Positions 1,921 to 20,654 of a DNA stretch of 33,465 nucleotides are shown here, in pieces. The DNA is from Bryobacteraceae bacterium. Lineage in GTDB: Bacteria; Acidobacteriota; Terriglobia; Bryobacterales; Bryobacteraceae. The stretch spans positions 1 through 33,465 of the forward strand of contig JADGNR010000007.1 in assembly GCA_017883415.1 (NCBI GenBank), written 5' to 3'. The position numbers were made by a program, and so were the translations under genes. Positions within the stretch are counted from its first letter, which is position 1. Every line of letters begins with the position of its first letter. The notes beneath the pieces were generated by a model that saw only the letters and a list, made by a program, of their open reading frames with translations, did not search any database and was not told where the DNA came from.

Positions 1921-2658
1921 CTACAGGCTGCGCAGGTGAAATCCGCCGTCCACGTGGATCACCTGGCCGGTAGAGTAATCGAGCAGCCCGTCGGCGATGG
2001 CGCGCACCGCTTTGGCGACGTCCGCGCCCTCGCCCATGCGCCGCTGCGGCAACAGGCCGTCGGCGATCTTTTGCTCGTAGGCCTTTTCCACGATGGCGGT
2101 CATGTCGGTGCGCACGATCCCCGGCTGGATCTCGAACACCTTGATGCCCGCGTCGGCCAGCCGTACCGCGTACAGCGCCGCCGACATGCTCAGCCCGGCC
2201 TTGGAAATGCAATACTCCGGGCGGCTCACCGATGCCGTGAAGGCGGAGATCGAGGTCACGAAAACGATGCGCCCCTGGCCGCGACCGGCCATCCACGCTC
2301 CCGCCAGCCGCGTGAGGAAATGCGGCCCCTTGAGGTTGACCGCCATCAGCTCATCGAAGCTCTCTTCGGTGGCTTCCAGAAGATCGCGGCGCTCGCGCGG
2401 GCCCATGCCGGCGTTGTTCACCAGCAGGTCGAGCTCGCCGAAGCGCTCGCGGGCGAAGGCGATCAACGCCTCGCGGTCCTCCGGGCGCGAGACGTCGCAC
2501 GGGAAGATCTCGCAGCCCGTTTCCTGGCGCAGCCGCTCGGCGGCATCGCGCCGGTCGCGGTAGGTTCCGATCACGTTGTGCGTGCGCGCCAGTTCGGTGG
2601 CGATGGCGCGCCCGATCCCCCGGCTGGCGCCAGTGACGATGCTATTTGGCCTGGGCAA
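1921..2658 (-). CDS. Short-chain dehydrogenase/reductase (FabG-like)
   Basis: This classical SDR of about 245 residues, counted from a TTG start at 2658, is a NAD(P)H-dependent oxidoreductase with a Rossmann fold. It shows the cofactor glycine motif TGASRGIG (9-16), NNAG (81-84), and the catalytic serine 136, Tyr149 and Lys153 (EYCISKAG). The usual beta-alpha ending is present (TGQVIHVDGGF). The start was placed at the TTG 2658 because SDRs normally begin 8-15 residues before the glycine motif; a second TTG at 2691 would add 11 residues. Neither has a strong ribosome site, and the gene overlaps the DsbA-like gene, so coupling is likely. Substrate unknown; a 3-ketoacyl or sugar/alcohol substrate is possible. 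Confidence 0.9.
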   Translation of the reverse strand: MPRPNSIVTGASRGIGRAIATELARTHNVIGTYRDRRDAAERLRQETGCEIFPCDVSRPEDREALIAFARERFGELDLLVNNAGMGPRERRDLLEATEESFDELMAVNLKGPHFLTRLAGAWMAGRGQGRIVFVTSISAFTASVSRPEYCISKAGLSMSAALYAVRLADAGIKVFEIQPGIVRTDMTAIVEKAYEQKIADGLLPQRRMGEGADVAKAVRAIADGLLDYSTGQVIHVDGGFHLRSL

Positions 2659-3217
2659 GGGCGGCGTCGAGTCCCTTCGAGATTTCTTCAAAGGTGAATG
2701 TTTCGATGAAGGGCGCGCCGTTCACGAAAACGGTGGGGGTGTGCACCACGCCGCGCGCCACACCGTCCTGGTAGTCCTTCTCCACCATCGCCTCGTACTT
2801 GGGATCGCCCAGGGCGGCCAGCGCATCGGCGGGTTTAATGCCGTGGCTGCGCGCGAACTCCCCCAGCCGGTCGTTGAAGTTATCCGCGTTGGTTTCGGCG
2901 ATGGTCGCGAGCGCGTGCCGGCGATACTCCAGCCCGAGCTTGGCGTCGCGCTCGGCGAAGAAGCGGGCCGCGATGGCCGCGCGCCGCGCGCAGGGATGCT
3001 TGGCCAGCGGGAAATCGCGGTGGACGAATTCCACCCGGTCCCCGTATTTCGGAAGGATCTGCCGGTCCATCATCACCCGGAAATTGGCGCAGTCGGAGCA
3101 TTGCAGGTCCTCGTAGATCACGGCGCGCACCGGGCTGCCCGCGCGGCCCTCGGTGAGGCCCTGCGCCACAAGCAGTTGCGCACTGGCGGACAGAAGAGCG
3201 ATGGCCGCGCCTCTCAT
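2642..3217 (-). CDS. DsbA/thioredoxin-like periplasmic thiol-disulfide oxidoreductase
   Basis: This 191-residue protein has a short signal-like hydrophobic N-terminus (1-19) followed by a thioredoxin fold of the Thioredoxin_4/DsbA_2 type. The active site is CSDC (Cys40-Cys43) after the first strand, and the cis-proline loop is HTPTVFVNG (Pro161). The inserted helical domain lies at about 75-150. It probably oxidises or isomerises disulfides in exported proteins. The ATG at 3217 overlaps the stop of the upstream glycine-zipper gene (ATGA), and its 3' end overlaps the SDR gene. The CxxC dipeptide Ser-Asp is not the classical Pro-His, so its redox direction cannot be judged from sequence. Confidence 0.88.
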   Translation of the reverse strand: MRGAAIALLSASAQLLVAQGLTEGRAGSPVRAVIYEDLQCSDCANFRVMMDRQILPKYGDRVEFVHRDFPLAKHPCARRAAIAARFFAERDAKLGLEYRRHALATIAETNADNFNDRLGEFARSHGIKPADALAALGDPKYEAMVEKDYQDGVARGVVHTPTVFVNGAPFIETFTFEEISKGLDAALAQAK

Positions 3218-4107
3218 ATCCGTGTGGCGGTCTCCAGCACAAAGGTCAAGCGCGTTTCCGAGGGAATCTTGACGCGCTGGCCCTTGGTGACCACCTCGGC
3301 GCCGGCGCCCGCCGCGCCGCCGGCGGCCGCGCCCACGGCCGCGCCCTTCCCGCCGCCGGCGATGGCCCCGATGATGGCGCCCACCGCGGCGGTCCCGCCC
3401 ACTACTTTGCCGGTTCGCTCTCCGCGCGAGGAACTCTCCCGCGAAACGCTTTGCGTATTGATGTCCACCATGCGGTCGCCCACCTTGACGGACACCAGGT
3501 CGAGGGTCAGCTCGGAACGGCCGGCGAATTTTCCGGACTCCTTGGAATCCACCAGCTTGACTACCACGTCCGCGCCGCGCGGGATCGCCGTTTCGCCGTT
3601 GACCATCACCGGCTCATCCATGCTCGCCGCGAACGTCTGGCCCACGCGATTGGTTTCCGAATCCACCCCCTCGATCATCCTTACCACCAGGTTGGTGCCC
3701 GAGGGCAATTCCACCGCGCCGCGAGATGCCGGCGGAGGAGCATCGTTCGGGTCGGGACGCATCACGTTGCCGCTGGTGCTGTCGTTGTCCTGCCGGCGAA
3801 GGACCGGGCGCGCATCGTCGTCCGAGTCGTTCCGGCGGAGTGGCGGACGCGCGTCGTCGTCCGAGTCGTTCCGGCGGAGCGCCGGGCGCGCGTCGTCGTC
3901 CGTTCGGGCGGATGCGCTGCCGAATTCGATGCGGACCACATCCGAGATGTCCAGAGTCCGGATCTGGTCGCCCACCTCGATTCTGATCTGCCGCGGCGAG
4001 CCCCCCAGATATGTGCCATTGATTACACGGCCGCTCTTCAACGTGACGGTATCCGCAAAACCGGCCGTGGCCAAAACGAAAACGATTCCCAGGTGCAGCA
4101 CGCGCAT
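3214..4107 (-). CDS. Exported glycine-zipper protein with acidic/basic tandem repeats
   Basis: This 297-residue exported protein starts at the ATG 4107, preceded by an AGGGGGA ribosome site. A signal peptide (1-18, ending TAGFA/D) is followed by a small beta domain (DTVTLKSGRVINGTYLGG..., 19-65). Next come three 13-residue repeats of DDARPxLRRNDSD and a proline-rich linker. A beta domain (about 135-225) follows, then an Ala/Gly-rich glycine zipper (VGAIIGAIAGGGKGAAVG..., about 235-270) that may insert in a membrane, and a last strand pair. This architecture recurs in Acidobacteriota hypothetical proteins; function unknown, probably envelope-associated. The frame remains open far upstream of 4107, but that part overlaps the DUF697 gene in another frame and lacks the signal peptide logic. 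Confidence 0.85.
   Translation of the reverse strand: MRVLHLGIVFVLATAGFADTVTLKSGRVINGTYLGGSPRQIRIEVGDQIRTLDISDVVRIEFGSASARTDDDARPALRRNDSDDDARPPLRRNDSDDDARPVLRRQDNDSTSGNVMRPDPNDAPPPASRGAVELPSGTNLVVRMIEGVDSETNRVGQTFAASMDEPVMVNGETAIPRGADVVVKLVDSKESGKFAGRSELTLDLVSVKVGDRMVDINTQSVSRESSSRGERTGKVVGGTAAVGAIIGAIAGGGKGAAVGAAAGGAAGAGAEVVTKGQRVKIPSETRLTFVLETATRI
3781..3897 (-). repeat. Three tandem 39-bp repeats within the glycine-zipper gene
   Basis: Three exact-length 39-bp units (3781-3819, 3820-3858, 3859-3897) each encode DDARPxLRRNDSD or a close variant. The two units at 3820-3897 are nearly identical at DNA level and the 3781 unit is more diverged. The unit is a multiple of three, so copy number could change by slippage without breaking the frame. 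Confidence 0.9.
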
Positions 4108-4159
4108 AAGTCCCCCTTGGAGTTTTCCTTCCCTATTGTACGACGCGCTGCCGCGCCAT

Positions 4160-5023
4160 TTAGTGTACCGGTTGTTCACCCGTGCGGAGAGATTGCACCA
4201 TCTCTTCTCCGCGCCGAAACGCCTGCTGATACACCTGCTCACGCTCCTCACTGGTGTACGCTGCGCCGGCGCGATGGTAGAGCTCGAGACTCTTGCCGAC
4301 CACGAACGTCCCGGCGTAGGCAATGGCGCCCTTGGGGACCAACCCGCCGCCGAACGGGATCTTGCCCGCCAGCTCGCGGGCGATGGCGCGCCATCCGAAG
4401 GCGCCGGCCGCAATGGTGACCAGTTCGCCCTTCTGCTGCGAGAACCCGATTTCCTTCCCGCAGGCCGCGGCAATCAGGAATGCCATGCGGACCTGGTTGG
4501 CGGTAAGGAACGCCGTGTCGGTAGCGAATTCTCCGAAGGCCCACGGCAGCTCGATGAGGCTCGGAATCACATCCGGCAGCGCGGTGGCCACCGCGAACAG
4601 CGCGTTCTCCCGCGCGATGGAATGGATGATGCGCTCCACCACAGGCCGCCGGAACGCCGGAAACTGGCGGGCCAGCGGCAGCGCGAAATCCTCATTCCCG
4701 CGCAGGATCTCCACGATGGTTCGCTCGGGCTCGTCGCGGTGAAACGTGTACGCGCCCTCCGGCGTGGCGAGGTCTTGCTGAAAGAGAACAATGTCCACCG
4801 AGGCCGGGACGCCCGGGTCGTCGGCGCGATACACGCGATCGACGAGCGCCCATTGCTTGTTGCGCGGCAAACCCCGGGGGACGAGGAAGTCTTCCATTTC
4901 GCCGTACCCCTTGCCGTCCGTCGCGACCAGCCCGATGCGCACGGGCCGCCCGGCGCGCTGGCGCACCTCATCGGGATTCAAAAGACCGATGGCGGCGCGG
5001 GCCTGCTTCAAGAGTTTCAGCAT
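4160..5023 (-). CDS. DUF697-like membrane-associated protein
   Basis: This 287-residue protein has an N-terminal soluble half (1-110) with a strand-rich core (RIGLVATDGKGYGEMEDFLV, VDIVLFQQD) and a C-terminal half (about 125-287). The C-terminal half has two conserved helical hairpins, one around FLTANQVRMAFLIAAACGKE and one around IPFGGGLVPKGAIAYAGTF, plus a helical tail. That half resembles DUF697, which is often found C-terminal to small GTPase-like modules such as YcjF; no Walker motif is present here. It is the first gene of a probable operon with the glycine-zipper, DsbA-like and SDR genes (52-bp gap to the next). Role unknown; membrane association is inferred. Confidence 0.7.
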   Translation of the reverse strand: MLKLLKQARAAIGLLNPDEVRQRAGRPVRIGLVATDGKGYGEMEDFLVPRGLPRNKQWALVDRVYRADDPGVPASVDIVLFQQDLATPEGAYTFHRDEPERTIVEILRGNEDFALPLARQFPAFRRPVVERIIHSIARENALFAVATALPDVIPSLIELPWAFGEFATDTAFLTANQVRMAFLIAAACGKEIGFSQQKGELVTIAAGAFGWRAIARELAGKIPFGGGLVPKGAIAYAGTFVVGKSLELYHRAGAAYTSEEREQVYQQAFRRGEEMVQSLRTGEQPVH

Positions 5024-5238
5024 AAAGGATCATTCTAACTCCAATCCAAACCCGCCCCTGGCTCAAAGGGCCGGCTCTCGCTACACCGCCTGCTGACGCG
5101 CGCGGCTCCGATCAGAGACGCGACCTTGAGAACGTATGAAAAAACCGCCCGTCAACGCGTGGCAGGCGGCACTGCCGGACAGCACCGCCTGCCCCACCTT
5201 TACGACGGGACCCCATCCGTGCTATTCAGATAACAACA

Positions 5239-6234: not shown

Positions 6235-6380
6235 GGTAGTGTAGCCCTGGGCTGGGTTTCTCGCGCCGCTGGCTGGTACCCTATCTTTAGGACACTACCC
6301 GTCAGTGGGGTAGGCCTCCGGCCTGCCCAGCGCGCGAAGCGCCCTCGGCGCGGGCGTCTGGGAATGCCCCGTCAGTGGGG
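6235..6380. repeat. Composite intergenic repeat: inverted and direct repeats
   Basis: Two structures lie side by side. GGTAGTGT (6235-6242) and ACACTACC (6292-6299) form an inverted pair around 49 bp. The 12-bp direct repeat CCCGTCAGTGGGG-like (CCGTCAGTGGGG) occurs at 6299-6310 and 6369-6380, exactly 70 bp apart. The sequence between the direct copies is GC-rich with short internal inverted repeats (for example AGGCCTCCGGCCT). The second direct copy contains the stop codon of the gene ending at 6372. It could be a small non-autonomous element with a target duplication; no transposase is nearby. Confidence 0.5.
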
Positions 6381-7874
6381 CCGTTCCGCTCCCGTGAGGC
6401 GGAACATCACCCGCAGCTCTTGTCGCCAGTCTTCCGCCACACCGATTCGCTCCACATCGACCACGGGGGAAAAGTACCCCAGAATCGTCTCCGTGGTGGG
6501 ATGGAATTCGAGCGCCGGCGAAACCAGCAGCAGGCGCGGCGGCTCGGGCCGCAGGAGTATGCCCGGAAAGTACCCGCTGGCGGTGAACTCGCCGCGGTCC
6601 AGGTGCCATTTGACGCGGATCCAGTAATCCAGGGCTTGCAGCGGCAGGTGCAGGTCGGCGGACGCTTTGAGCTCCACCACGGTGAGACGGCCGCTGCGAT
6701 CCACCGCCAGCAGGTCCATCACGCCGCGCTCGCCCGCGGCGAAGGCGGGCACCTGGCCGTAGATGGGATCGGCCAGCAGCGAGGCGTCCAGGGTTTCGAT
6801 CTGGGCGCGCGCCTGGGACTCGAGCCAAGCCTCGGGGTATTGGCGATAGAGCGGATGGGCGCGGTCGGCCGCCCCGGGCGTGCGTGCGCGCCGCAGTTCT
6901 TCCGCGAGGCGCTCGATTTCCGCGCCATGATGCGGAGCAGCCGGGAGGCGCTGACCCAGGCCGAAGAGCAGGCCGCCTTCGGAGATCTCGGCGAATTCCA
7001 GACCGCGCACCCGCAGGCTGGCGCGGCCGTCGTGCTTCACGACGCGCTCCACGCCGGGGAGCGAAGCGATGCGCTGCCAGCCTTCCCCTTGATTGGGTCC
7101 GGGCCGGCGGCAGGGTTCGAGGCGGGTATCGAGGTTGCCGTGGTCCCGCGGGTCGATGCGCTCAACGACGTCCTGCTCGGAATAGGTGAACAACTCGAAA
7201 CGCACGGCCGAAGGATCGAGCGAGAGCAGGCGCAGCGCGGCGCCGCGCTCCCGCCCCGCCGGCGCGTAGAGGGCCAGCCCTTCGATCGCCACCCGGCGCT
7301 TGCTCGCGCGCAGGTAAGAGAGCCAGATCAGCCCGAAAGAGAGCGCGGCCGCCGCATCGCCTTCCGGAGGGCAGGCGAGGGCCGCCCAGCCGTGCTGGCC
7401 ATGATGCAGGAACGCCCGCGGAAACGCCGGCGAGAGGCTGAATTCCAGGTTCGCTTCGGTACTAAGCTCGGCCAGGTCCCATTCGGGAAACTGGCGGCGC
7501 AGAAACAACCGGAAGCGCTCGCGAAACACCAGGCGCCCGCTGCGCCGGCCCAGGTCGGCGCCGCCCGGGCGGGCCAGATCGAGCAGGAAGAGCCGCCCTT
7601 CGCGCCGCGCAAACCGTTCCACGGTAAGTTCCAGCCGCGCCGCCGCCGGCTCCTGGACCGCGGTGACGCGACGCGCCAGGTTGCGCGTCCGGTCCCAGGC
7701 CTCGAGCACCAGGCGCGAGCCGCGCATCGCCAGAGAGAAATTGTCGCCGGTAAGGGGCAGCAGTTCTTCGCCGGGCTCGAGCAGCGCCGGTTGGCGGCAA
7801 CTCCGGAGAAACGCCTCGATCGCGGCGCGGATCTGGTCGGCGCTCCGGCCGAGCGGCCGCTCAACGGATGGCAT
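6372..7874 (-). CDS. PD-(D/E)XK nuclease-like domain protein of unknown function
   Basis: This 500-residue cytosolic protein has no signal or membrane segment. Residues 1-370 form a large Arg/Glu-rich region without a recognised domain. The C-terminal part has a PD-(D/E)XK-like core: GVMDLLAVDRSGRLTVVELK gives Asp387, then Glu401-x-Lys403 after a strand turn, followed by a helix-rich LQALDYWIRVKWHL. This is the active-site layout of restriction-endonuclease-fold nucleases such as the DUF91/NucS type. An ATG at 7874 is used; the same frame is open further upstream but there overlaps the MFS gene out of frame. It follows the MFS gene by 23 bp and has its own possible promoter. DNA cleavage is inferred, not shown. 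Confidence 0.72.
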   Translation of the reverse strand: MPSVERPLGRSADQIRAAIEAFLRSCRQPALLEPGEELLPLTGDNFSLAMRGSRLVLEAWDRTRNLARRVTAVQEPAAARLELTVERFARREGRLFLLDLARPGGADLGRRSGRLVFRERFRLFLRRQFPEWDLAELSTEANLEFSLSPAFPRAFLHHGQHGWAALACPPEGDAAAALSFGLIWLSYLRASKRRVAIEGLALYAPAGRERGAALRLLSLDPSAVRFELFTYSEQDVVERIDPRDHGNLDTRLEPCRRPGPNQGEGWQRIASLPGVERVVKHDGRASLRVRGLEFAEISEGGLLFGLGQRLPAAPHHGAEIERLAEELRRARTPGAADRAHPLYRQYPEAWLESQARAQIETLDASLLADPIYGQVPAFAAGERGVMDLLAVDRSGRLTVVELKASADLHLPLQALDYWIRVKWHLDRGEFTASGYFPGILLRPEPPRLLLVSPALEFHPTTETILGYFSPVVDVERIGVAEDWRQELRVMFRLTGAERPH

Positions 7875-7883
7875 GGAAACCGG

Positions 7884-7889
7884 ATTATA
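7884..7889 (-). promoter_or_regulatory. Consensus -10 box, possible leaderless promoter of the PD-(D/E)XK gene
   Basis: A perfect TATAAT lies on the minus strand, ending 9 nt before the ATG at 7874. No Shine-Dalgarno sequence is present in between, and the -35 region is poor. A -10 box 7-10 nt upstream of an ATG is the usual picture for leaderless transcripts. Confidence 0.4.
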
Positions 7890-7897
7890 GCGCGCGG

Positions 7898-9115
7898 CTA
7901 CTCGCCGAACACCGCGCCCCGCCGCTCGCGGCCGAGGGCCGTGGCCGCCGCCGCCATGGCGAACACCACGGCCGCCGTGGCGGCCATGGCGATGGCATAG
8001 CTGGTATGGCGCGCGAATACCGCTTCGATCTGGTTTACCGGGCTGGCCAGAAGCACGCCGACCTGGTAACCGAACCCTGGCAGGAAACCGCGCACCGCAT
8101 CCGGAGACAGCTCCGAAAGGTGCGCCGGAATCACGCCCCACGCGCCCTGCACCAGGAACTGAATCAGAAATGCGCCGGCGAACAGCAGGGGGAGCGAGGG
8201 CGCGAAAGCCCACAAGGGAATCGCCAGAATCGCGCCCAGAAGAGCGGCAATCATGACGCGGCGCCTGCCCCACCAGTCGGAGAACAGGCCGCACAGCGTG
8301 CCGCCCAGAATGGCGCCGATCATGGAGAACCCGGTGAGCAGCGCGCGCCTGCCGACGCCAAAGCCCCACTGCCGCTCCAGGAATGTGGGATAGAGGTCCT
8401 GCGTCCCGTGCGACGCCAGGTTCATGGCCATCATCAATACGGCCAGGTACAGAAACAGTTTCCAGTTCGACAGAATCGCCCGGCCGAGATGACTCCAGTT
8501 CGCGGAGCGCGTTTTCTTCCAGACTTCCGACTCCTTCACGCGGAACCGCACGAAGAGCGCCAGGATGGCGGGCAGCCCGCCCACAAAGAACATCGGCCGC
8601 CAGCCGAAGCGCGGGAACAGGAAGAAATAACAGACCGCCGCCAGCAGATTCCCGGTGGCATACCCCTGTTGCAGGAAGCCGGAAAGCACGCCGCGCAGGC
8701 GGACCGGCACTTTCTCCATGGCGAGAGAAGCGCCCACGCCCCACTCGCCGCCCATGCCGACGCCAAACAACGCCCGCAGCACCAGGAACGTGGTGAAATT
8801 GGGAGCGAGGCCGGAGAGCACCTCGATCACCGAGTAGAACACCAGATCGAGCATCAGCGGCAGGCGGCGCCCATAGCGGTCGGCCAGCAACCCGAAGATG
8901 AAGGCGCCCAGCGGGCGGAACGCCAGAGTGAGTGTCAGGGTGGCGGCAACCTGGGCGTCGGACTTGTGGAATTCGCGCCCGATGGCGGTCAGGCAAAAGC
9001 TGACCAGGAAAAAATCGAAGGCGTCGAGCGTCCATCCCAGCCAGCCCGCCAGCAACGCGGCGCGGTGGTCGGCAGCTCCCTCGGGGAAGGCGGGCACGAC
9101 TATGGAATTCGACAC
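7898..9115 (-). CDS. MFS transporter, SHS/carboxylate (lactate, sialate) type
   Basis: This 405-residue major-facilitator protein has about 12 membrane segments. It resembles the sialate/lactate H+ symporter (SHS/Jen1) family: GWTLDAFDFFLVSF in TM1 and GLLADRYGRRLPLM after TM2 (motif A). RALFGVGMGGEWGVGASLAME in TM4 is the acid-transporter signature, and GLFSDWWGRRRVM repeats motif A in the second half. It probably imports small monocarboxylates or sugar acids with protons. A GTG start at 9115 is used (VSNSIVVPAF). It lies 27 bp after the TPR gene and 23 bp before the nuclease-like gene, suggesting co-transcription. Exact substrate cannot be read from sequence. Confidence 0.9.
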   Translation of the reverse strand: MSNSIVVPAFPEGAADHRAALLAGWLGWTLDAFDFFLVSFCLTAIGREFHKSDAQVAATLTLTLAFRPLGAFIFGLLADRYGRRLPLMLDLVFYSVIEVLSGLAPNFTTFLVLRALFGVGMGGEWGVGASLAMEKVPVRLRGVLSGFLQQGYATGNLLAAVCYFFLFPRFGWRPMFFVGGLPAILALFVRFRVKESEVWKKTRSANWSHLGRAILSNWKLFLYLAVLMMAMNLASHGTQDLYPTFLERQWGFGVGRRALLTGFSMIGAILGGTLCGLFSDWWGRRRVMIAALLGAILAIPLWAFAPSLPLLFAGAFLIQFLVQGAWGVIPAHLSELSPDAVRGFLPGFGYQVGVLLASPVNQIEAVFARHTSYAIAMAATAAVVFAMAAAATALGRERRGAVFGE

Positions 9116-11390: not shown

Positions 11391-13823
11391 CTACTCCCAG
11401 CGCAGCGATTCCAGGGGGTCCACGCGCGTGGCGCGGCGTGCCGGAAGGTAACTGGCGAGAAGCGCCACCAGCAGAAACAGCAGGGCGCCGGCCGCGAAGG
11501 TCGGCAGGTCGGTCACACTCACGCGATACAAAAGGGTGGCGAGCAGCCGGGTCAGCGCGAGCGAAGCGCCGATGCCGATCGCGATTCCCGCCAGCGCCAG
11601 CAGCAGGCCCTGGCGCAGCACCAGGCGCAGGATGTCCGCCCTCTCCGCGCCCAGCGCCATGCGGATGCCCATCTCCTGCGTCCGCTCGGCCACCGAGTAG
11701 GAAATCACTCCGTAGATCCCCACCACGGCCAGCAGCAGGGCGATGGCGGAAAGCGCGCCCAGCAAGGACGCCGTGAACCGCGGCTGCGCGCGGGCGGACT
11801 CGAGCACTTCCTCCATGCTGCGGACCGCGGTGACCGGCTGGTCGCGGTCGAGCGCCAACACGCGCGCGCGCACCGCGGTAATCAGCCGGTGGGGGTCGCC
11901 TTCGGCACGTACCACCAGGTTCATGGCGGGCCACGGAAGCTGCGCGAAGGGAATAAAGATCTCGGGCGCCACGTCCGCGGCCAGGTTCCTGTTGCGCACA
12001 TCGCCCAGCACCCCGGCCACCTCGCTCGGCCGCGCCATTCGGCCGATGAGGATGTGCTTGCCCACCGCGTTCTCTTTCGGCCAGTAGCGCCGCGCCAGCG
12101 TATCGTTCACCAGGATCACCGGGGGAGCGGACGCATCGTCGCGCGCCGTGAACTCGCGGCCGCGCTGGAGCGGGATGCGCAGCGTCTCCGCATACCCCGG
12201 GCCGATGGCCTGAATATTGAACAGCGGCCGCTCCATGAGCGGCACCTGCGGCTGCCCCTCCGGAAGCGCTGGGGAGAAGCGAACCGGGTTTGCCGGAAGG
12301 GCCGAGGACGCCGCCGCGGAGCGCACGCCCGGCAGGGTCCGCACCTGCCGGACCAGTTCGTCGTAGAACGCGATCTGCGCGGCGCGCGCGTAGCGGGCGG
12401 GTGGCAGCGCGATGTTCATGGTGAGCAGGTGCTGCGCATCGAATCCCTCGCTGGCCCCGCGCAATTGCATGAAATTGCGTAACAGCAGCCCGGAGGCGAT
12501 CAGCAGCACCAGCGACAGCGCCGCCTGGGAGACCACCAGCACGTTGCGCAGCGCGTTGCGGCGCCGGCCGGAACTGGCGCCGCGGCCCTCCGCGCGCAGA
12601 ACCGAATTCAGATCCGGCCGCGAAACCTGCCACGCCGGCACCAGCCCGAACAGGATGCCGGCCAGCAACGACACGGCGGCCGTGAACGCCAGCACGTAGC
12701 CGTCGGTGTGAATCTCCATGGCGCGCGGCAGATTTTCCTGGGCCATGGAGGCCAACAGGCGCGTGCCCCACGAGCTGAGGAGCGCTCCCAACGCTCCTCC
12801 GGCGAGCGCGAGCATCAGGCTTTCCGTGAGAAGCTGCCGGACCAGGCCGCCGCGCGTGGCCCCCATGGCCGTGCGCACGGCGATCTCGCGCCTCCGCCCC
12901 AGCGCGCGGGACAACAGCAGGCTGGAGACGTTGGCGCAGGCGATCAGCAGCACCAGCGCAACCGCGCCCGAGAGAATCAGCAGGGCGGGGCGGATACCGG
13001 CAACCATCTCGTCACGCAGGCCGCCGGCGCGTACCGCGATGCCGGGATCGGCGTCGGGCAGCTTGGGATACTCGCTGCGGTAGGGCGTGCCGAGAGCGTC
13101 CATCTCCGCCTGCGCCTGTCCTATGGCGAGCCCGGGTTTCAGGCGGGCGACGGCGTTCAGGAACATCACGCCGCTCTGGATCTGCGCGCGGGTCACCAGG
13201 TTGAACTCGAAGACGCGCGGCGCGAAGATATCCACCGCGGGCCCGAGCAGGCCAAAACGAAAGCCGGCCGGGAGGATGCCGATCACGGTGTAGTCGTTGC
13301 CATCGAGGGTCAATTGCCCGCCGATGGCCGCGGGGTCCGCGGCGAAGCGGCGGCGCCAGAGCGCATCGCCGATCAGCACCACCGGGTCGCCTCCGGCCTT
13401 GTCCTCCGCGGGACGGAACGAGCGGCCGAGCGCCGGCGGCACGCCGAGAATATCGAAGAAATCCCACGAAACGCGCGCCGCCGGAATCTGTTCCGGATCG
13501 CCGCGCCCGGTCAGATTGAAGACTTCGCCGGTGAAGGCGGCCATGCCCGCGAAGGAGGAGGCGTGGTCGTGCACAAACGAGATGCGGGGCCACGAGAGCG
13601 GGCCGCCGCGGCCCCCGTTGGCCTTCTGCTCCGCCGCGATCAGCACCAACCGGTCCGGCTGCCGGTACGGCAATGGCCGCAGCAGCAGGGCATTGGCCAC
13701 GCTGAAAATGGCCGTGTTGGCGCCGATCCCCACGGCCAGCGTGAACACCGCGACCACCGCGAACGCCGGGCTCTTCGCCCACAGGCGAACGGCGTACCGG
13801 GCGTCCTGGGTGAACGTGCTCAT
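11391..13823 (-). CDS. ADOP-type ABC permease (MacB/FtsX-like, duplicated)
   Basis: This 810-residue inner-membrane protein is typical of the acidobacterial duplicated orphan permeases. A first membrane helix (AFAVVAVFTLAVGIGANTAI) leads into a large MacB periplasmic core (about 50-245), followed by an FtsX membrane domain (about 280-400). A second MacB core (about 435-650) and a second FtsX domain (about 685-800) end in RATRVDPLESLRWE. No ATP-binding gene is adjacent, as is usual for this family; it may act with an unlinked MacB-type ATPase in export or envelope mechanotransmission. The ATG overlaps the stop of the upstream nucleotidyltransferase-like gene by 4 bp, so translation is coupled. 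Confidence 0.95.
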   Translation of the reverse strand: MSTFTQDARYAVRLWAKSPAFAVVAVFTLAVGIGANTAIFSVANALLLRPLPYRQPDRLVLIAAEQKANGGRGGPLSWPRISFVHDHASSFAGMAAFTGEVFNLTGRGDPEQIPAARVSWDFFDILGVPPALGRSFRPAEDKAGGDPVVLIGDALWRRRFAADPAAIGGQLTLDGNDYTVIGILPAGFRFGLLGPAVDIFAPRVFEFNLVTRAQIQSGVMFLNAVARLKPGLAIGQAQAEMDALGTPYRSEYPKLPDADPGIAVRAGGLRDEMVAGIRPALLILSGAVALVLLIACANVSSLLLSRALGRRREIAVRTAMGATRGGLVRQLLTESLMLALAGGALGALLSSWGTRLLASMAQENLPRAMEIHTDGYVLAFTAAVSLLAGILFGLVPAWQVSRPDLNSVLRAEGRGASSGRRRNALRNVLVVSQAALSLVLLIASGLLLRNFMQLRGASEGFDAQHLLTMNIALPPARYARAAQIAFYDELVRQVRTLPGVRSAAASSALPANPVRFSPALPEGQPQVPLMERPLFNIQAIGPGYAETLRIPLQRGREFTARDDASAPPVILVNDTLARRYWPKENAVGKHILIGRMARPSEVAGVLGDVRNRNLAADVAPEIFIPFAQLPWPAMNLVVRAEGDPHRLITAVRARVLALDRDQPVTAVRSMEEVLESARAQPRFTASLLGALSAIALLLAVVGIYGVISYSVAERTQEMGIRMALGAERADILRLVLRQGLLLALAGIAIGIGASLALTRLLATLLYRVSVTDLPTFAAGALLFLLVALLASYLPARRATRVDPLESLRWE

Positions 13824-14443
13824 TCCGTCTCTCGAATATGCTGAAGCCGGGATTGGAGGTCGATCGGCAGGGCCTTTTCCACTTCGGGAGTGATTAAGCC
13901 GGCGGCGTCCATGCTGCGAATGTGAACCCGGTCCTTATCGCGGTACGCACTCAGCTTCATCCTCGCCAGATCCACCACCGGAATCACGAATGCTTCCCGG
14001 CCGTGGATGGTTCTCCGTTCGGGATGGATCGGCGGATTGGGTGTTGCCTGATTTGGTCTGACCTTCTCCCCGCTGAAAATCAGGTGCACGGCGTTCTTTG
14101 TGCTATCGGTTTCGCCGTAGAGCAGCATATCGAGCCCGGCCGAGTGACGGAACCGGAATCCATGTTGCGAGGCAATCTCTTTCACTCGCTCCAGATCGGA
14201 CCGCAGAATCATCAGATCCACAGCGCGAGTCAGTGTGGAGTGAGTCGGATCGGCGGCTTCCACGTGGATCAGGACCGCCAGACCGCCGATCAACTCATGC
14301 GGCACATTTTCCGTCATGAGAGGATCGGCGATCTTGTGCAAGACCCCTACCAGGTCGAACAGACGCTCCTCGAACATGAGATTGATCGCCTCCCCTTTCC
14401 GTGCGGTGTCCCGAAGAAACTGCTCGAATGTCAGTATTGGCAT
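13820..14443 (-). CDS. Nucleotidyltransferase-fold protein (AbiEii-like)
   Basis: This 207-residue soluble protein starts at ATG 14443 (a GTG directly before it is possible). Its layout suits the minimal nucleotidyltransferase superfamily (AbiEii/DUF6036 relatives). A helical N-terminus is followed by the GG motif HELIGGLAVLIHV, an ARG-rich TRAVDLMILRSDLERV strand where the catalytic acidic pair normally sits, and a strand-helix end (PVVDLARMKLSAYRDKDR) with the DLxxxKLxAxRxxD pattern common in these proteins. A second metal-binding Asp is not obvious, so activity is uncertain. It lies 12 bp after the CPBP gene and overlaps the ADOP start. Confidence 0.65.
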   Translation of the reverse strand: MPILTFEQFLRDTARKGEAINLMFEERLFDLVGVLHKIADPLMTENVPHELIGGLAVLIHVEAADPTHSTLTRAVDLMILRSDLERVKEIASQHGFRFRHSAGLDMLLYGETDSTKNAVHLIFSGEKVRPNQATPNPPIHPERRTIHGREAFVIPVVDLARMKLSAYRDKDRVHIRSMDAAGLITPEVEKALPIDLQSRLQHIRETE

Positions 14444-14455
14444 CACCGGCGCTCT

Positions 14456-17400
14456 CTATATTATTGACGCCGCTGCGGCCCTGCGCCTAAACGCGGGCCC
14501 CACCGCCCACGCCAGGCTGGCCGCCAACACGGCCGCCACGATCCATCCTTGCGTGTGGAGCGACGGATTGGGATTGCCGAACAGCTCCGCCAGGGCCGGC
14601 TGGAGCGCCAGCATCCACAGGGCCAGCAGGTACGCAAGATAATTTTCGCGGGCGAAGCACACGCAAAACAAAACCGCGGCGACCACCGGGATGAGCGCCA
14701 CGCCGTAGTGCAGCGCGAATTCGCCGGGCGTGTGGATGGCGGACGGCAGAATCACGAACGGCGCCGCCAGCACCGCGGCCGCGCGCATCCAGCGCTTCGG
14801 CAGATGGCGCCAGACCAGCGCCAGCGCGCCCGCGATGGCCGCGCGCAACAGCGTGGAGCGCACCGCGCCCGCGATGGCTGCCGCCGCCGGGCCGGCGCTG
14901 GCGATCAGGTCCGGGCTCGAGATCGAAAACAGGGCACAAGCGTGGAACCGGTCCATCAGCCAGGCTGCCAGGCGGCTCGAGAGCAGCGCCAGACCGGCGG
15001 CCGCCAGCACCGCCGCCGCCGCATCCCCGCCATAGACCCGCCGATAGCGCGCGCGGAGCGCGGCAGCGCCCTCGGGATAGAACGACGTGAGGAACGCAGC
15101 CGCTCCGGAGAGCAGCAGAAACGCGAGGATCGCCGACATGCCCAGAACGGTGTAGGTCACTACCCGATAGGTCTCCAGGGGAATCGCGGTAGGGTAGCTT
15201 TCGAGCGTCAACTGGATCGCCAGCAGCGGGCCCACAACGCCCGCCAGCGCCGGAACCACGGCCATGCGAATCGCTTTCGGCCACGGCACCAGCCCCTGGC
15301 GCGTGTTCCCAATGAGCAGCCACAGGGCCCACACCACCGCCCCCGCCAGCAGCCCGATGCGCAGAAGCAGCACCGCGATGGAGAGAAGATTCTGCTGCGA
15401 GCGGACGCGCACAAAAGCTTCCGGCAGTTTCCAATGCGACCGCAGCGAAGAGACCCGGTCTCCGGCCACGCCGATTTCCACGCGGTAGCGGGCTTCGTCC
15501 AGGTTGCGCTCGTCGCCCGGGCGCGCCTCCCAGACCAGGGTGTAATCGAGCCGCGCCTTCTTTTTCTGCGAGCGGCTCTCTTTCAATTCCATGGCGGGCA
15601 GGGCGAAATTCTGTGCGCCGGAAAACGCCATGGCGATGCGGCGTGCCTCCGCCGGCGAAACCTCGGCGCCTGGGCGGTCCTCCGGAATGGTGTGGCTGAA
15701 GCCCATCGTGCGGCCGGTCTCGGGATCGACCGTGACCAGAAGCTCTTCCTGATCGAGCGGCCGGAAATAGCGCGTGGCCCAATGCTCGACGGGGCGGAAG
15801 CGCTGGAAGAGGCTGGAGGCGAAGCTCACCGGCCGGCGTTCGAGGAAGTATTTGCCCGCCAGCGCGTCGTCGCCCTCCCAGTGCAACGCCGGATAAGCCA
15901 CGTGGCGAAACGCATTGGGGTCGACGCCCTGGCCGCGCAGAAAAGCGTCGGAGGAGGCGCGCGCCTGGTGGTCGTCGAGCGTAAATCCGGGCGATTCGCC
16001 GAAGCGGTGCACGGGAATCAACAGACTGAGCAGGCCCAGAATGCACACGCCGACGGCCGCCACCCGCCCGCGCGCCGCCAGCGGCCGGTAGGGCACGCCA
16101 GGCTCGGTCACCACCGGCGCGGCATCCACCGGCGCCGCGGGCGCGGCCTCATCGCCATTGAGCAGGCCGGTCTCCGGCTCGAATCCGCCGCGTCTCCAGT
16201 AAGCTGCCAGAGCCACCACCACGGGCAGCACGAGCAGCCCCGCGCTGGCGGCTCCGGAAAGCCGGAAGTACAGGCTGTGCGAGCGCAGCAGCAGCATGGC
16301 GCTGTACATGGCATCCACCGAGTAGTGCCACACCAGAGTGGGCAGAATGCCCCAGCGCAGCATGATCAGCCCCAGGGCCACGCCGCCGAGTCCCACTTCC
16401 AGGCCGCGTATGAAGAACGGCTGCTGCGGATATCCGGCGTGGCCAAATCCCCAGATGAAGCCCGCCAGCACTACGGCCGCCGGGAGCCAGCGCACCAGTT
16501 TGCGCAGAAACGGAATGGCGAACATGCGAAACAGGAACTCTTCGGAGACCGCGGGCAGGTACCCGCCGAACAGCACAAAGAGCCACGGAAAGCGGGTATT
16601 CAGCAGGTCGCTGTAGGGCACATCGGCGGGCGACCAAGCGCCGAAGCGGTACGCCACGATGTAAAAGATGGTCTGGTAGGCGATAAAAATTCCGGTCAGC
16701 GTGATTCCCAGAATGGTTCCCAGGAAGAACCGCCTGGTGCGCAAACCGCGCGGGCGAAAGAGACCGGCGAGCGAAATCTGGCCAGGCAAAGCTTCGCGGT
16801 AAAGCGTCTCGGCGCCGGCGGCGAGCACGAACAGCAGACCGCCTGCGCCCAGCGCGCCGAGGAGGGCCTCGAGCGCATAGCGGAGGACGAAACTGCCGTA
16901 GGTGTCGGTGGTCGGATACGCGAATTCACTGAGCGGAAACTCATTGAGACGGGCGCCGAGCGCGAGGGCCATTCCCACCGTGCCGACCAGGGCCGCCCGG
17001 CGCCAGCGAATATCCTGGCGCCGCACGCGCATCACGATCGTCGCCAGCAGGCCGGCCACCAACCCCAGCATCACGGCCGAATCGATAAGCTGCGCCACCT
17101 CGTTCTTCGAGCGCAGGCGTTCGTATTCGCGCGTCCAGCGCTCGGGGATCTTGAGGTATTCGCGATAGCCGCCGGCTTCGTCGCCGAGGAGGGTGACCTC
17201 CAGGCGATGGTCCGCATCGCGCAGCAGGAAATCCCGCTCTTTCCAGGTAAATACGCGGTCGACGCGGCGCGGCCGCGCGATGGTCGAGACCTCCATGAAG
17301 TCGAGCGAAGCCGGGTCGCGCCCGAGCGAGCCGCGCAGGAAATCCTCGGCCAGCGCCCGCGCCCGCTCCGCCGTGGTCTCCGCGCGCGCGGCGTCTTCGG

Positions 17401-17806
17401 GAATCTCGTGGGCGAAACCGGAGAATTCGCCCGAGGGCGTGATATCCGCGCGAAATTCTTCTTTCTGCTGCGGCCGGAACCAGCGATAGGACCAGCGCCA
17501 CAGGCGGATGCGGCCGCCCATGATGCGATTGGCCCGCTCCAGGCCGGCTTCGCGTTCCAGAAAGGTCTTGGCGTCGTCGTCGAAGCTGAAGCTCGAGGCC
17601 TCGCGGTAGCCCGCGGTGCGATAGCCCCGAGCGGCGAGGAAGCGCCCGGCGAGTAACCGCGCATCCTCGCGGCTCACCCGAAAATCGATGGAGGCTTCGG
17701 GAAATGCGCGGTAAAAATTTCGCACCGAAAACCATGTGCTTCCCGCCAGCAGCGCGAGACACACGGCGATGAAGCGGTAATCGGAAGGGCGCAGCCGTTC
17801 TTTCAT
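14456..17806 (-). CDS. Giant CPBP (CAAX-type) intramembrane protease with duplicated extracytoplasmic domains
   Basis: This protein has 1116 residues from ATG 17806 (a GTG at 17830 would add eight). The order is membrane anchor (about 10-28), extracytoplasmic domain 1 (35-235), membrane helices, and a CPBP glutamic-protease core. The core has Glu422-Glu423-xx-Arg426 (SEEFLFRMF), His456 (FGFGHAGYP context) and His494 (LVWHYSVDA). Extracytoplasmic domain 2 (about 605-790) repeats domain 1, and a C-terminal bundle of about eight helices follows. The repeat is clear from YRWFRPQQKEEFRADITPSG with FAHEIPED versus TRYFRPLDQEELLVTVDPET with FSHTIPED. CPBP enzymes cleave prenylated or small membrane peptides. 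The gene is 55 bp after ubiE and 12 bp before the nucleotidyltransferase gene. Confidence 0.88.
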   Translation of the reverse strand: MKERLRPSDYRFIAVCLALLAGSTWFSVRNFYRAFPEASIDFRVSREDARLLAGRFLAARGYRTAGYREASSFSFDDDAKTFLEREAGLERANRIMGGRIRLWRWSYRWFRPQQKEEFRADITPSGEFSGFAHEIPEDAARAETTAERARALAEDFLRGSLGRDPASLDFMEVSTIARPRRVDRVFTWKERDFLLRDADHRLEVTLLGDEAGGYREYLKIPERWTREYERLRSKNEVAQLIDSAVMLGLVAGLLATIVMRVRRQDIRWRRAALVGTVGMALALGARLNEFPLSEFAYPTTDTYGSFVLRYALEALLGALGAGGLLFVLAAGAETLYREALPGQISLAGLFRPRGLRTRRFFLGTILGITLTGIFIAYQTIFYIVAYRFGAWSPADVPYSDLLNTRFPWLFVLFGGYLPAVSEEFLFRMFAIPFLRKLVRWLPAAVVLAGFIWGFGHAGYPQQPFFIRGLEVGLGGVALGLIMLRWGILPTLVWHYSVDAMYSAMLLLRSHSLYFRLSGAASAGLLVLPVVVALAAYWRRGGFEPETGLLNGDEAAPAAPVDAAPVVTEPGVPYRPLAARGRVAAVGVCILGLLSLLIPVHRFGESPGFTLDDHQARASSDAFLRGQGVDPNAFRHVAYPALHWEGDDALAGKYFLERRPVSFASSLFQRFRPVEHWATRYFRPLDQEELLVTVDPETGRTMGFSHTIPEDRPGAEVSPAEARRIAMAFSGAQNFALPAMELKESRSQKKKARLDYTLVWEARPGDERNLDEARYRVEIGVAGDRVSSLRSHWKLPEAFVRVRSQQNLLSIAVLLLRIGLLAGAVVWALWLLIGNTRQGLVPWPKAIRMAVVPALAGVVGPLLAIQLTLESYPTAIPLETYRVVTYTVLGMSAILAFLLLSGAAAFLTSFYPEGAAALRARYRRVYGGDAAAAVLAAAGLALLSSRLAAWLMDRFHACALFSISSPDLIASAGPAAAAIAGAVRSTLLRAAIAGALALVWRHLPKRWMRAAAVLAAPFVILPSAIHTPGEFALHYGVALIPVVAAVLFCVCFARENYLAYLLALWMLALQPALAELFGNPNPSLHTQGWIVAAVLAASLAWAVGPAFRRRAAAASII

Positions 17807-17861
17807 GCGGGCGGTGGTTTTCGGCCGCACCGCTGGCGATTAGCCGCGGCGCGCCCCGGCG

Positions 17862-18557
17862 TCATTGCTTCGCCGCCCAATGCAAGGCGATGCCGCCGAG
17901 CAGGTAGCGCCGGGTGCCCACCTGCCGGTACCCCGCGCGGCGCAGGAGGGATGAAAAATCGTCAATGGAAACGAAGCTGCGGATGGAATCGGCAATGTAC
18001 GTGTACACCCGCGGCCGGCCGTGCAGCAGCAGGCCGAACAGCGCGCCCTGCGCGTACAGGACGCCCAGATACAGCCGCCGCAAGAAGGGGTTCGCGGGGA
18101 GAAAGAAATCCAGGCTTACCATCATCCCGCCGCGGCGCGTCACCCGCTCGATCTCGCCCACGGCCAACGCCAGACTCGGAAAATTGCGCAGACCGTAGCC
18201 GACGAACACGCAATCGAAGGAGCCGTCGCGGAAGGGCAGCAGGCCGGCATCCGCGCAGACGGCCCTCTCTAAGCCGCGCGCCCGGGCCAGTTGCAGCATG
18301 CGCTCGGTCACATCGACGGCGATGGTGCGACAGCCGGGATACCGCCGGCTTACCAGAAAGGAGAAGTCGCCCGTGCCCGACGCCAGGTCCAGTACCACCG
18401 GGTACTGGGACAGTTGCGCTTGCTCGACGCCCGCCTGCTTCCACCGCCCATCCATCCCATAAGAAAAGACGCGGGTGAAGAAGTCGTAGCGCGGCGCAAT
18501 GGTGGAAAACATTGCACGCATGAGGTGCAGATTCTGCTTTTCGACTGGCGGTTTCAC
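17862..18557 (-). CDS. ubiE: Demethylmenaquinone/ubiquinone C-methyltransferase
   Basis: This 231-residue SAM-dependent methyltransferase belongs to the UbiE/MenG/COQ5 family. It carries MFSTIAPRYDFFTRVFS near the N-terminus, the SAM motif VLDLASGTGDF (55-65), AVDVTERML (80-88), and the UbiE hallmark VGYGLRNFPS (119-128). It methylates demethylmenaquinol to menaquinol, the last step of quinone synthesis, at the cytoplasmic face of the membrane. A GTG start at 18557 gives the family's usual N-terminal length; an ATG at residue 13 is also possible. It is the first gene of a run with the CPBP protease, and it supplies the quinone used by the cytochrome bd oxidase in this window. Confidence 0.93.
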   Translation of the reverse strand: MKPPVEKQNLHLMRAMFSTIAPRYDFFTRVFSYGMDGRWKQAGVEQAQLSQYPVVLDLASGTGDFSFLVSRRYPGCRTIAVDVTERMLQLARARGLERAVCADAGLLPFRDGSFDCVFVGYGLRNFPSLALAVGEIERVTRRGGMMVSLDFFLPANPFLRRLYLGVLYAQGALFGLLLHGRPRVYTYIADSIRSFVSIDDFSSLLRRAGYRQVGTRRYLLGGIALHWAAKQ

Positions 18558-18642: not shown

Positions 18643-19821
18643 CTAGCGGCGCGAGGATTTGGCGTTGGCTGCGCCCGGCATCTCCACCGCTGCGCTCGCC
18701 GATACAGCGCCCCACCGCGGAGCCGCCGAGCGATCCAGCATCTGCACCATCGCGTACGCCGGCACGTCCTCCGCTTCTTTGACGAACGTGAGCCGCTGCA
18801 ACGCGCTGTCGTAGCCCACCCGCAGCAGGTCGCCGGCTCGCACTTGCGCGGTCGCGATCAGGTTGGAGAGCGAATGAACCAGATTCCGGTCAATGGCCCG
18901 CTTCAAATGCCGCGCGCCATATTTCAGGTCCGTGCCCTCGCGCAGCAGAAAGTCCTGCGCCCCGTCGGTGAGCGAAAAAACAAAGGGCGCTCCGTGGGCC
19001 GAGTTGAAGATCCGCTGCTGCACGATGTCCAACTCCAGCGCCAGGATCTTGCGCAATTCCCCCTCGCCCAGCGGCCGGAACACCACCGTCTTGTCGATGC
19101 GGTTCATGAATTCCGGCGTGAACTTCCGCCGCGCCGCTTCCACGCCCGCGCGCGAGACCTTTTCGGACAACGTATCGTCCACCATGCCGGCCGCCTGCCG
19201 GCGCTCCACCTCCCCCGCCGCGAATCCCAGGTTGGGCCGCAGAAGGGAGTTCATCTCCGAAGCGCCGAGGTTGCTGGTCATGAAGATCATGGCCCGCGAA
19301 AAATCCACCCGCCGGTTATCGCCCAGTGTGAGCGTAGCCTTGTCCAGGATGCCGAGCAGCAGGTTCCAGAGCGCATCGCTGGCCTTTTCGATCTCGTCGA
19401 ACAGCACCAGGCTCAGCTTGATTTTCTCGGTGTGATACTGGTTCAGCACTTCCTGGCTGAGCAGCGCGTGGGTTTCGCGGTGGCCCAGATATCCGGGAGG
19501 CGAGCCAATCAGTTTGGAGATCTCGTGACTGTGCTGGAATTCCGCGCAGTCGATCTTGACGACCGCGCGCGCATCGCCCACCAGGCTTTCCGCCGCGGCT
19601 TCCACCATGCGCGTTTTGCCGGAGCCCGTGGGTCCGAGAAACAATAAATTGCCGACCGGCCTTCCAGGGCTGGACATGCCCGCCAGATACGTCTGGTAGG
19701 TGTTAACGATCTGCTCGATCGCCTCCTCCTGGCCCACGATCCGCTTCCGCAAATCCGAATCGAGCTGTTCGCTCTCCACGCCAGTGAGTGTCGGATCCAA
19801 CTGCTTATTCAGGCACCCCAT
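18643..19821 (-). CDS. Stand-alone AAA+ ATPase of ClpB/ClpA second-domain (D2) type
   Basis: This 392-residue protein consists of a single class-III AAA+ module. It has Walker A GPTGSGKT (63-70), Walker B LVLFDEIEKA (Asp142-Glu143), sensor 1 MTSNLG (Asn184), arginine finger EFMNRID (Arg241), and sensor 2 YGARHLKRAI (Arg304), followed by the ClpB_D2-small domain. The Clp N-domain, D1 ATPase and middle coiled coil are missing, and no obvious ClpP-docking IGF/IGL loop was seen. It probably forms a hexameric unfoldase or disaggregase; partner unknown. ATG 19821 is the favoured start, with a G-rich ribosome site upstream; the frame is open upstream but that part overlaps the SDR gene region and is not conserved-looking. 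Confidence 0.88.
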   Translation of the reverse strand: MGCLNKQLDPTLTGVESEQLDSDLRKRIVGQEEAIEQIVNTYQTYLAGMSSPGRPVGNLLFLGPTGSGKTRMVEAAAESLVGDARAVVKIDCAEFQHSHEISKLIGSPPGYLGHRETHALLSQEVLNQYHTEKIKLSLVLFDEIEKASDALWNLLLGILDKATLTLGDNRRVDFSRAMIFMTSNLGASEMNSLLRPNLGFAAGEVERRQAAGMVDDTLSEKVSRAGVEAARRKFTPEFMNRIDKTVVFRPLGEGELRKILALELDIVQQRIFNSAHGAPFVFSLTDGAQDFLLREGTDLKYGARHLKRAIDRNLVHSLSNLIATAQVRAGDLLRVGYDSALQRLTFVKEAEDVPAYAMVQMLDRSAAPRWGAVSASAAVEMPGAANAKSSRR

Positions 19822-19934
19822 AACCCTGTTGCCCCCTCTCGCTTTCTTAGATGGAGCAAGTGTGTTGCCAGGGTGCAGGAGGAACGTAATTTTCCTGTAA
19901 ATGCGGTCAAACCCAAGCCGCCCGGTATCGGACA

Positions 19935-20654
19935 TTACTTCGCGGGACGGGAAGGGCGCATTTCCATACGGCTGATCATGGTTCGCGCGGGCATGCGCAA
20001 CACCAGAACCACCGCTTCGGCCACATCTTCGGGAGCGATCATCCAACTTGTGTCGCCGGCGCGCTTGGGCGCGCCTGGGGTAAAGTCCGTGTCCACGCTT
20101 CCCGGCATAATAGAGGTTACGCGGACATTGTCATAGCGGTGATCGAGCATCATCGCTTCGGTGAAGCCATTGAGTCCGAATTTCGACGCGTTGTAAGCCG
20201 CCCCTCCGCTGAACGCGTTCTTACCCGCCAGGCTGGAGATATTGACGATAAACCCTCCGCCGCGCTGGGAGAACCGCGCCAGGGCCTCGCGCGAGCAGTA
20301 GAAGGGGCCATTCAAATTGAGGTCGATGTTGCGATGCCATTCTTCCGGCGTCATCTCCGCGACTTTCCGAAATACGGCTTCGCCGGCATTATTCACCAGG
20401 ATGTCGGCGCCGCCGAATTTCTCGTCCACGGCCTGGAAGAAGCGGCGCACCTGCTCCACTTTGGCGACGTCCGCCGGAACCCCGAAGATCCTCCCCAACG
20501 GGGTCATCTCCTCCACGGCGCGGTCCACGGACTCCTGGCTGCGCCCGCAGATAGCCACAAAGGCGCCCTCCCGCAGCAGGCGGGCGGCGATGGCCCGGCC
20601 GATGCCCCGGGTGCCTCCGGTCACGATCGCGATCTTACCTGAAAGTGGTTCCAT
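19935..20654 (-). CDS. Short-chain dehydrogenase/reductase (FabG-like)
   Basis: This 239-residue classical SDR has TGGTRGIG (12-19), NNAG (88-91), catalytic Ser141, Tyr154 and Lys158 (AAYNASKFG), and the PGSVDTDF segment. The Ser-Tyr-Lys spacing is normal. Gly/Arg at the end of strand 2 (CGRSQ) suggests NADP(H) preference. Substrate unknown; annotation as 3-oxoacyl-ACP reductase would be by family only. It is divergent from the coiled-coil/GAF gene, with 52 bp between start codons. It is unrelated in sequence detail to the SDR at 1921, so the two are not a recent duplication. Confidence 0.9.
   Translation of the reverse strand: MEPLSGKIAIVTGGTRGIGRAIAARLLREGAFVAICGRSQESVDRAVEEMTPLGRIFGVPADVAKVEQVRRFFQAVDEKFGGADILVNNAGEAVFRKVAEMTPEEWHRNIDLNLNGPFYCSREALARFSQRGGGFIVNISSLAGKNAFSGGAAYNASKFGLNGFTEAMMLDHRYDNVRVTSIMPGSVDTDFTPGAPKRAGDTSWMIAPEDVAEAVVLVLRMPARTMISRMEMRPSRPAK

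Follow-up and report, generated by a model that had tools for sequence, protein, structure and literature searches.

A giant membrane protein of the CPBP (Rce1-like) family is encoded in a 33,465-nucleotide stretch of DNA, the window, from contig JADGNR010000007.1 of a Bryobacteraceae bacterium (GenBank assembly GCA_017883415.1, an incomplete draft genome). It is near certain, from sequence comparison and structure prediction, that this protein is a head-to-tail duplication of one module, which features a transmembrane helix, a YpeB/PepSY-like domain, and a membrane bundle. The analysis is computational throughout, and what is seen in the sequences and predicted models is the duplication, the fold of the domains, and an active site that is kept in one half and lost in the other. 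By its sequence, the second half is a pseudoprotease. Residue numbers refer to the 1124-residue form that begins at a possible GTG start; the first ATG of the frame, at position 17806, gives the 1116-residue product of a preliminary description, whose numbers are lower by 8. That description proposed a giant CPBP protein, and this is borne out. Pfam finds one family only, PF02517 (Rce1-like), at residues 414–508 with 41.9 bits against a cut-off of 22.4, and full-length relatives cluster at ~1,090–1,170 residues, so the size is conserved and is no accident of annotation. The SpoIIE domain (PF07228) is absent from the protein in the Pfam search, and searches of viral contigs and of PDB sequences found no relative.

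The two halves were compared at several levels. The preliminary description recognized two homologous extracytoplasmic domains, and self-alignment of residues 35–235 with residues 605–790 determined that they are homologous far beyond chance, with a BLASTP E value of 5e-19 on the single sequence and a profile-profile E value of 3e-56. The domains were thought to bracket the protease core, with a further ~330-residue membrane bundle following. Both domains and the bundle are real, however, the bundle is not an extra element but the second copy of the protease bundle, so that the duplication takes in the entire module, and the second of the two protease halves appears catalytically dead. The N half (1–575) and the C half (583–1124), each aligned with 15 relatives, match over 494 columns with an E value of 3.2e-65, and profiles of 85 sequences match over 490 columns at 1.6e-71. 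The first membrane helices after the domains match at a profile E value of 4e-21. The later bundle segments, or cores, where the N half has its active site, match at 1.5e-5, with column-reversed controls at 0.04–0.08. The core and whole-half values indicate that the second bundle shares descent with the CPBP bundle; chance was considered as the source of the bundle homology and was ruled out, as column-reversed profiles reach only 0.04–0.35. Additionally, a profile built from SpoIIE fusion proteins, which are described below, independently matches both halves, in each case along nearly all of the module, at positions 5–534 (E 5e-36) and 22–536 (E 3e-27). AlphaFold2 modelling of the full-length chain (mean predicted local distance difference test, pLDDT, 85.9; predicted template modelling score, pTM, 0.82) gives the helices after each domain the same order and spacing, and they correspond one-to-one between the halves. 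The C half modelled alone gives a pLDDT of 94.6 and a pTM of 0.90. The top Foldseek matches of the full model were ABC transporters, which were rejected as length artefacts (probability ~0.03–0.15, TM-score <0.1).

The alignment of relatives shows that E430, E431, R435, H464, H502, and D506 of the first half are present in 85/85 sequences. E430 is the first glutamate of the EEFLFR motif and is the E422 of the preliminary description, in the ATG numbering. At the HxxxN motif the histidine is found in 85/85 sequences and an aspartate replaces the asparagine in 85/85, and the Pfam model still aligns across it. The fold match of the first bundle to Rce1 (4cad, Z 6.5) is middling for a helical bundle, yet it agrees with the sequence family. 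The C half features no glutamate or histidine at the catalytic columns, where columns ~989–1000 hold alanine, leucine, or valine, and PF02517 matches 0/71 of the C halves tested. Rce1 is not in the fold list for the C half alone, which is not evidence either way. Mean pairwise identity is 0.245 in the C bundle, 0.504 in the N bundle, and 0.62 in the catalytic segment. The C bundle nevertheless keeps residues of its own, R844, W850, D936, E1037, R1061, and N1063, in 70–81 of the 85 sequences, and their retention, together with that of the residue constellation of domain B, argues that it is not a product of mere decay.

Domain B finds its best fold match in YpeB of Bacillus megaterium (5boi, C-terminal domain), with a Z-score of 11.0 for the full model and 14.1 for the C-half model; the match covers 151 residues at 4.0 Å and the next entry has a Z-score of 7.8. 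Foldseek gives a probability of 1.00 for the YpeB fold of the domain, and YycH and vibriolysin (Z 5.1) are also in the fold list of the C half. Domains A and B have in common a constellation of W, R, EE, H, E, RxD, and W. For a YpeB/PepSY domain, no Pfam match of the window protein reaches the gathering score, and therefore the domains are classed by fold and are not filed as YpeB. Among the relatives there are weak matches to PF16244 (YcdB/YcdC) in 19/71 and single ones to PepSY and YPEB. That the domains face the periplasm is suggested by the order of the predicted helices and by loops rich in arginine on the other side. YpeB inhibits and stabilizes the lytic enzyme SleB and is dimeric or multimeric (PMC6660665), which makes a partner-binding or inhibitory role of the domains a reasonable lead.

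The module is also found outside of the tandem proteins. Single-module proteins of 560–640 residues with the active site occur in several acidobacterial families (L161–L163, L166, and L168–L170). A second group, surveyed in Acidobacteriota (L171–L180), consists of fusions of 800–990 residues in which a module without the active site is followed by a SpoIIE-type (PP2C) domain. The membrane part of these fusions matches the C half of the window protein at an E value of 5e-37 and the N half at 8e-39; the fusion cores alone match at 1.4e-8 and 8.7e-10, respectively, with reversed controls at 0.18–0.35. Near-full-length fusions are present in at least 16 of 247 sampled acidobacterial genomes. When the window's own genome was searched with the fusion profile, the only module-bearing protein recovered was the window protein, each half of which matched along nearly the complete module. 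The module is read as a signal receiver mainly because a related copy stands in front of a SpoIIE phosphatase, which is cytoplasmic. At three loci (L122, L130, and L131), which form one clade and so count as one observation, the gene directly downstream of the tandem protease encodes a separate SpoIIE phosphatase. An adjacent gene pair at L177:4902-9955 (-) encodes proteins of 842 and 808 residues, each consisting of the membrane module and, after it, a SpoIIE phosphatase domain. Elsewhere, a tandem protease and a SpoIIE fusion of the same module are ~16 kb apart (G089, contig C47, L176) or ~34 kb apart (G345, contig C8).

A pattern search of ~85,000 species genomes found 376 stretches that encode a relative. 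For the best 80 of the 376 the phyla named include Acidobacteriota, Gemmatimonadota, Latescibacterota, Neomarinimicrobiota, Calditrichota, Cloacimonadota, Zixibacteria, and KSB1/TA06, these being the names of metagenome-assembled genomes, some of which are perhaps misassigned. Full-length relatives of ~1100 residues occur in the first five of these phyla and in others, and the closest copies are in metagenome-assembled genomes of Acidobacteriota, mainly Bryobacterales/Solibacteraceae. Some match was found in 68 of 396 sampled acidobacterial genomes, with ~29 of the 68 nearly full length. In a tree of 87 modules the N and C copies fall in separate groups, 34/35 each, the exception being L050, a long branch. 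This separation points to a single old duplication, which would have preceded the spread of the family over many phyla. In one single-contig genome (G216) the tandem gene is split into a piece of 443 residues at 4.21 Mb (L164), with domain A and the first helices, and a piece of 687 residues at 3.56 Mb (L165), with the end of the first bundle and the whole second module; the catalytic segment is in neither match.

The reading proposed here, the chances of which are put at about even, is that the window protein works as an intramembrane protease under regulation: one half is a built-in pseudoprotease, and two YpeB-like domains in the periplasm do the sensing. An ancestral module of ~560 residues (transmembrane helix, YpeB/PepSY-like periplasmic domain, CPBP bundle) would have been duplicated head to tail once. 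The first copy would have stayed an active CPBP glutamic protease, and the second, having lost its catalytic residues, would have become a built-in partner. Domains A and B may bind a ligand or a partner protein in the envelope, and this binding would be relayed through the paired bundles to gate the first bundle's action on a membrane-protein substrate, which it would cleave, the dead bundle holding, blocking, or shaping the live one. There are several points that weigh against this. An aspartate stands in place of the usual asparagine of HxxxN. No neighbouring gene is constant across the phyla and thus no partner is indicated. The fold search with the C half matched no solved structure to the second bundle, and for this reason its CPBP origin rests on profiles and helix order. 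Finally, a conserved active site need not mean proteolysis, as the catalytic residues of Abx1, a bacterial CPBP protein, are dispensable for its regulatory role on a kinase (PMC3578759).

Since Abx1 works without its catalytic residues (PMC3578759), the protein could instead be a purely regulatory, non-proteolytic membrane scaffold in which both bundles act through protein contacts; Abx1 acts in this way on the CovS kinase, and the target here might be a SpoIIE phosphatase or a kinase. The downstream SpoIIE genes and the existence of the fusions are in keeping with this, however, those three neighbours come from one clade, and the active site is invariant in 85/85 sequences while the rest of the protein diverges, which a scaffold would not need; the proposal is considered unlikely. 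Similar doubt attaches to the idea of a myxosortase-like protease that sorts or processes exported proteins, in which the first half would constitutively cleave their C-terminal (or other) membrane tags and the YpeB-like domains would bind substrate and not signal. CPBP enzymes act as sorting enzymes in Myxococcota, for example MrtX (PMC11980579), the constellation shared by both domains could be a peptide-binding site, and PepSY-like domains resemble protease propeptides, vibriolysin being among the fold matches. Nevertheless, no NCBIfam myxosortase model matches, and the SpoIIE fusions use the module without the protease active site, which fits sensing better. A broader proposal, put forward tentatively, is that an intramembrane protease gave rise to the module, which would serve bacteria as a general membrane receptor, with a YpeB-like ligand domain outside, a live or dead CPBP bundle, and exchangeable outputs, which would be proteolysis in the tandem proteins and PP2C dephosphorylation in the SpoIIE fusions. 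The tandem protein would then be an obligate pair of active protease and pseudoprotease within a single chain.

The preliminary description had suggested a so far undescribed sensor-protease of the envelope that would connect quinone status, peptide cleavage, and ADOP transport. The sensor-protease part is plausible, but the connection to quinones and ADOP is not supported and is regarded as very improbable. The gene for a ubiE-type methyltransferase does lie directly upstream on the same strand, both in the window and in 17/21 relatives with identities of 53% or more (a strict script counted 15, to which L096 and L100 are added), however, it is adjacent in 0/56 relatives at 30–45% identity and is thus a local neighbour only. 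The other two genes of the supposed group are rarer still, with ADOP adjoining the protease in no more than three close relatives and the nucleotidyltransferase in a single one. The predicted nucleotidyltransferase (13820-14446, minus strand) has no Pfam match above the cut-off, and among the relatives it lies beside the protease in L035 alone, the closest one.

The features of the gene are collected in the table. The region 14456-18557, given earlier for the protease, does contain its gene but also takes in ubiE. Elsewhere, the protease gene adjoins one for a GNAT acetyltransferase (17 loci), for an asparaginase on the opposite strand (10), or for a metallophosphoesterase (7). A lone ClpB-D2-like AAA+ gene and an SDR gene adjoin ubiE in many of the same genomes. 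In the window this AAA+ gene (18643-20046, minus strand) encodes a protein of 467 residues with the D2 half of ClpB only (AAA_2 and ClpB_D2-small), and it is conserved between ubiE and the SDR gene in many Bryobacterales. Two long open frames of the window, 2576-5038 (plus strand, 820 residues) and 6372-9035 (minus strand, 887 residues), have no Pfam match at E 1e-5.

Table. Positions in the window of the tandem protease gene, its predicted parts, and the upstream gene (residues in GTG-form numbering unless noted)
Feature	Position	Strand	Basis or remark
Whole gene	14456..17806	-	1116 residues from ATG
GTG-start form of gene	14456..17830	-	Open frame, 1124 residues; GTG start possible
Module 1, first transmembrane helix (residues ~15-42)	17705..17788	-	Predicted model, hydropathy; N terminus probably cytoplasmic
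Module 1, extracytoplasmic YpeB/PepSY-like domain A (residues ~44-227)	17150..17701	-	Homology to domain B, which matches YpeB 5boi
Module 1, membrane bundle, putatively active CPBP/Rce1 core (residues ~230-547)	16190..17143	-	PF02517; Rce1 4cad, Z 6.5
Catalytic motif 1, EEFLFR (E430, E431, R435)	16526..16543	-	Kept in 85/85 relatives
Catalytic histidine H464 (WGFGH)	16439..16441	-	85/85 relatives
Putative catalytic motif HxxxD (H502, D506)	16313..16327	-	Both residues in 85/85
Ala/Pro-rich linker between modules	16076..16189	-	Low confidence, pLDDT <50 at 562-569 (ATG form); probably cytoplasmic
Module 2, first transmembrane helix	16019..16075	-	Hydropathy, predicted models
Module 2, extracytoplasmic YpeB/PepSY-like domain B (residues ~615-803)	15422..15988	-	5boi, Z 14.1; residue set as in domain A
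Module 2, predicted pseudoprotease membrane bundle (residues ~815-1114)	14489..15388	-	Profile homology to module 1 bundle; catalytic residues absent
ubiE-type methyltransferase	17862..18557	-	Upstream neighbour in close relatives (Bryobacterales) only

To our knowledge, the functions of bacterial CPBP proteins are mostly unknown. No description of the tandem protease or the SpoIIE-fusion architecture was found in the open-access PMC papers searched. The tandem family combines an invariant active site, a dead sister copy in the same chain, and a recognizable sensor fold, and it could allow the control of an intramembrane glutamic protease by a pseudoprotease to be studied in one polypeptide. 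In the SpoIIE fusions, phosphatase activity offers an output that can be read to learn what the module senses.

The CPBP/Rce1 glutamic proteases (PF02517; MmRce1 4cad; MrtX; Abx1) have in common with the window protein the core bundle, the EExxxR motif, the second histidine, and, at the HxxxD/N motif, the histidine. The window protein differs from them in its length (1116 residues compared to ~200–350), in the aspartate for asparagine in HxxxN, in the periplasmic YpeB-like domain of each module, and in the apparently dead second module in the chain. The YpeB C-terminal and PepSY domains (5boi; PF14620, PF03413; YcdB/YcdC, PF16244) share the fold of the periplasmic domains, however, the window domains are not joined to a spore lytic system and are instead embedded in a CPBP protein. 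In the membrane SpoIIE/PP2C phosphatases of Acidobacteriota, a membrane part of ~560 residues shows homology to either half of the window protein along its whole length; the protease active site is missing, and a cytoplasmic SpoIIE domain, which the window protein does not have, is present. The single-module YpeB-like/CPBP proteins resemble it in having one such module with the active site, and differ in that their 560–640 residues are not duplicated.

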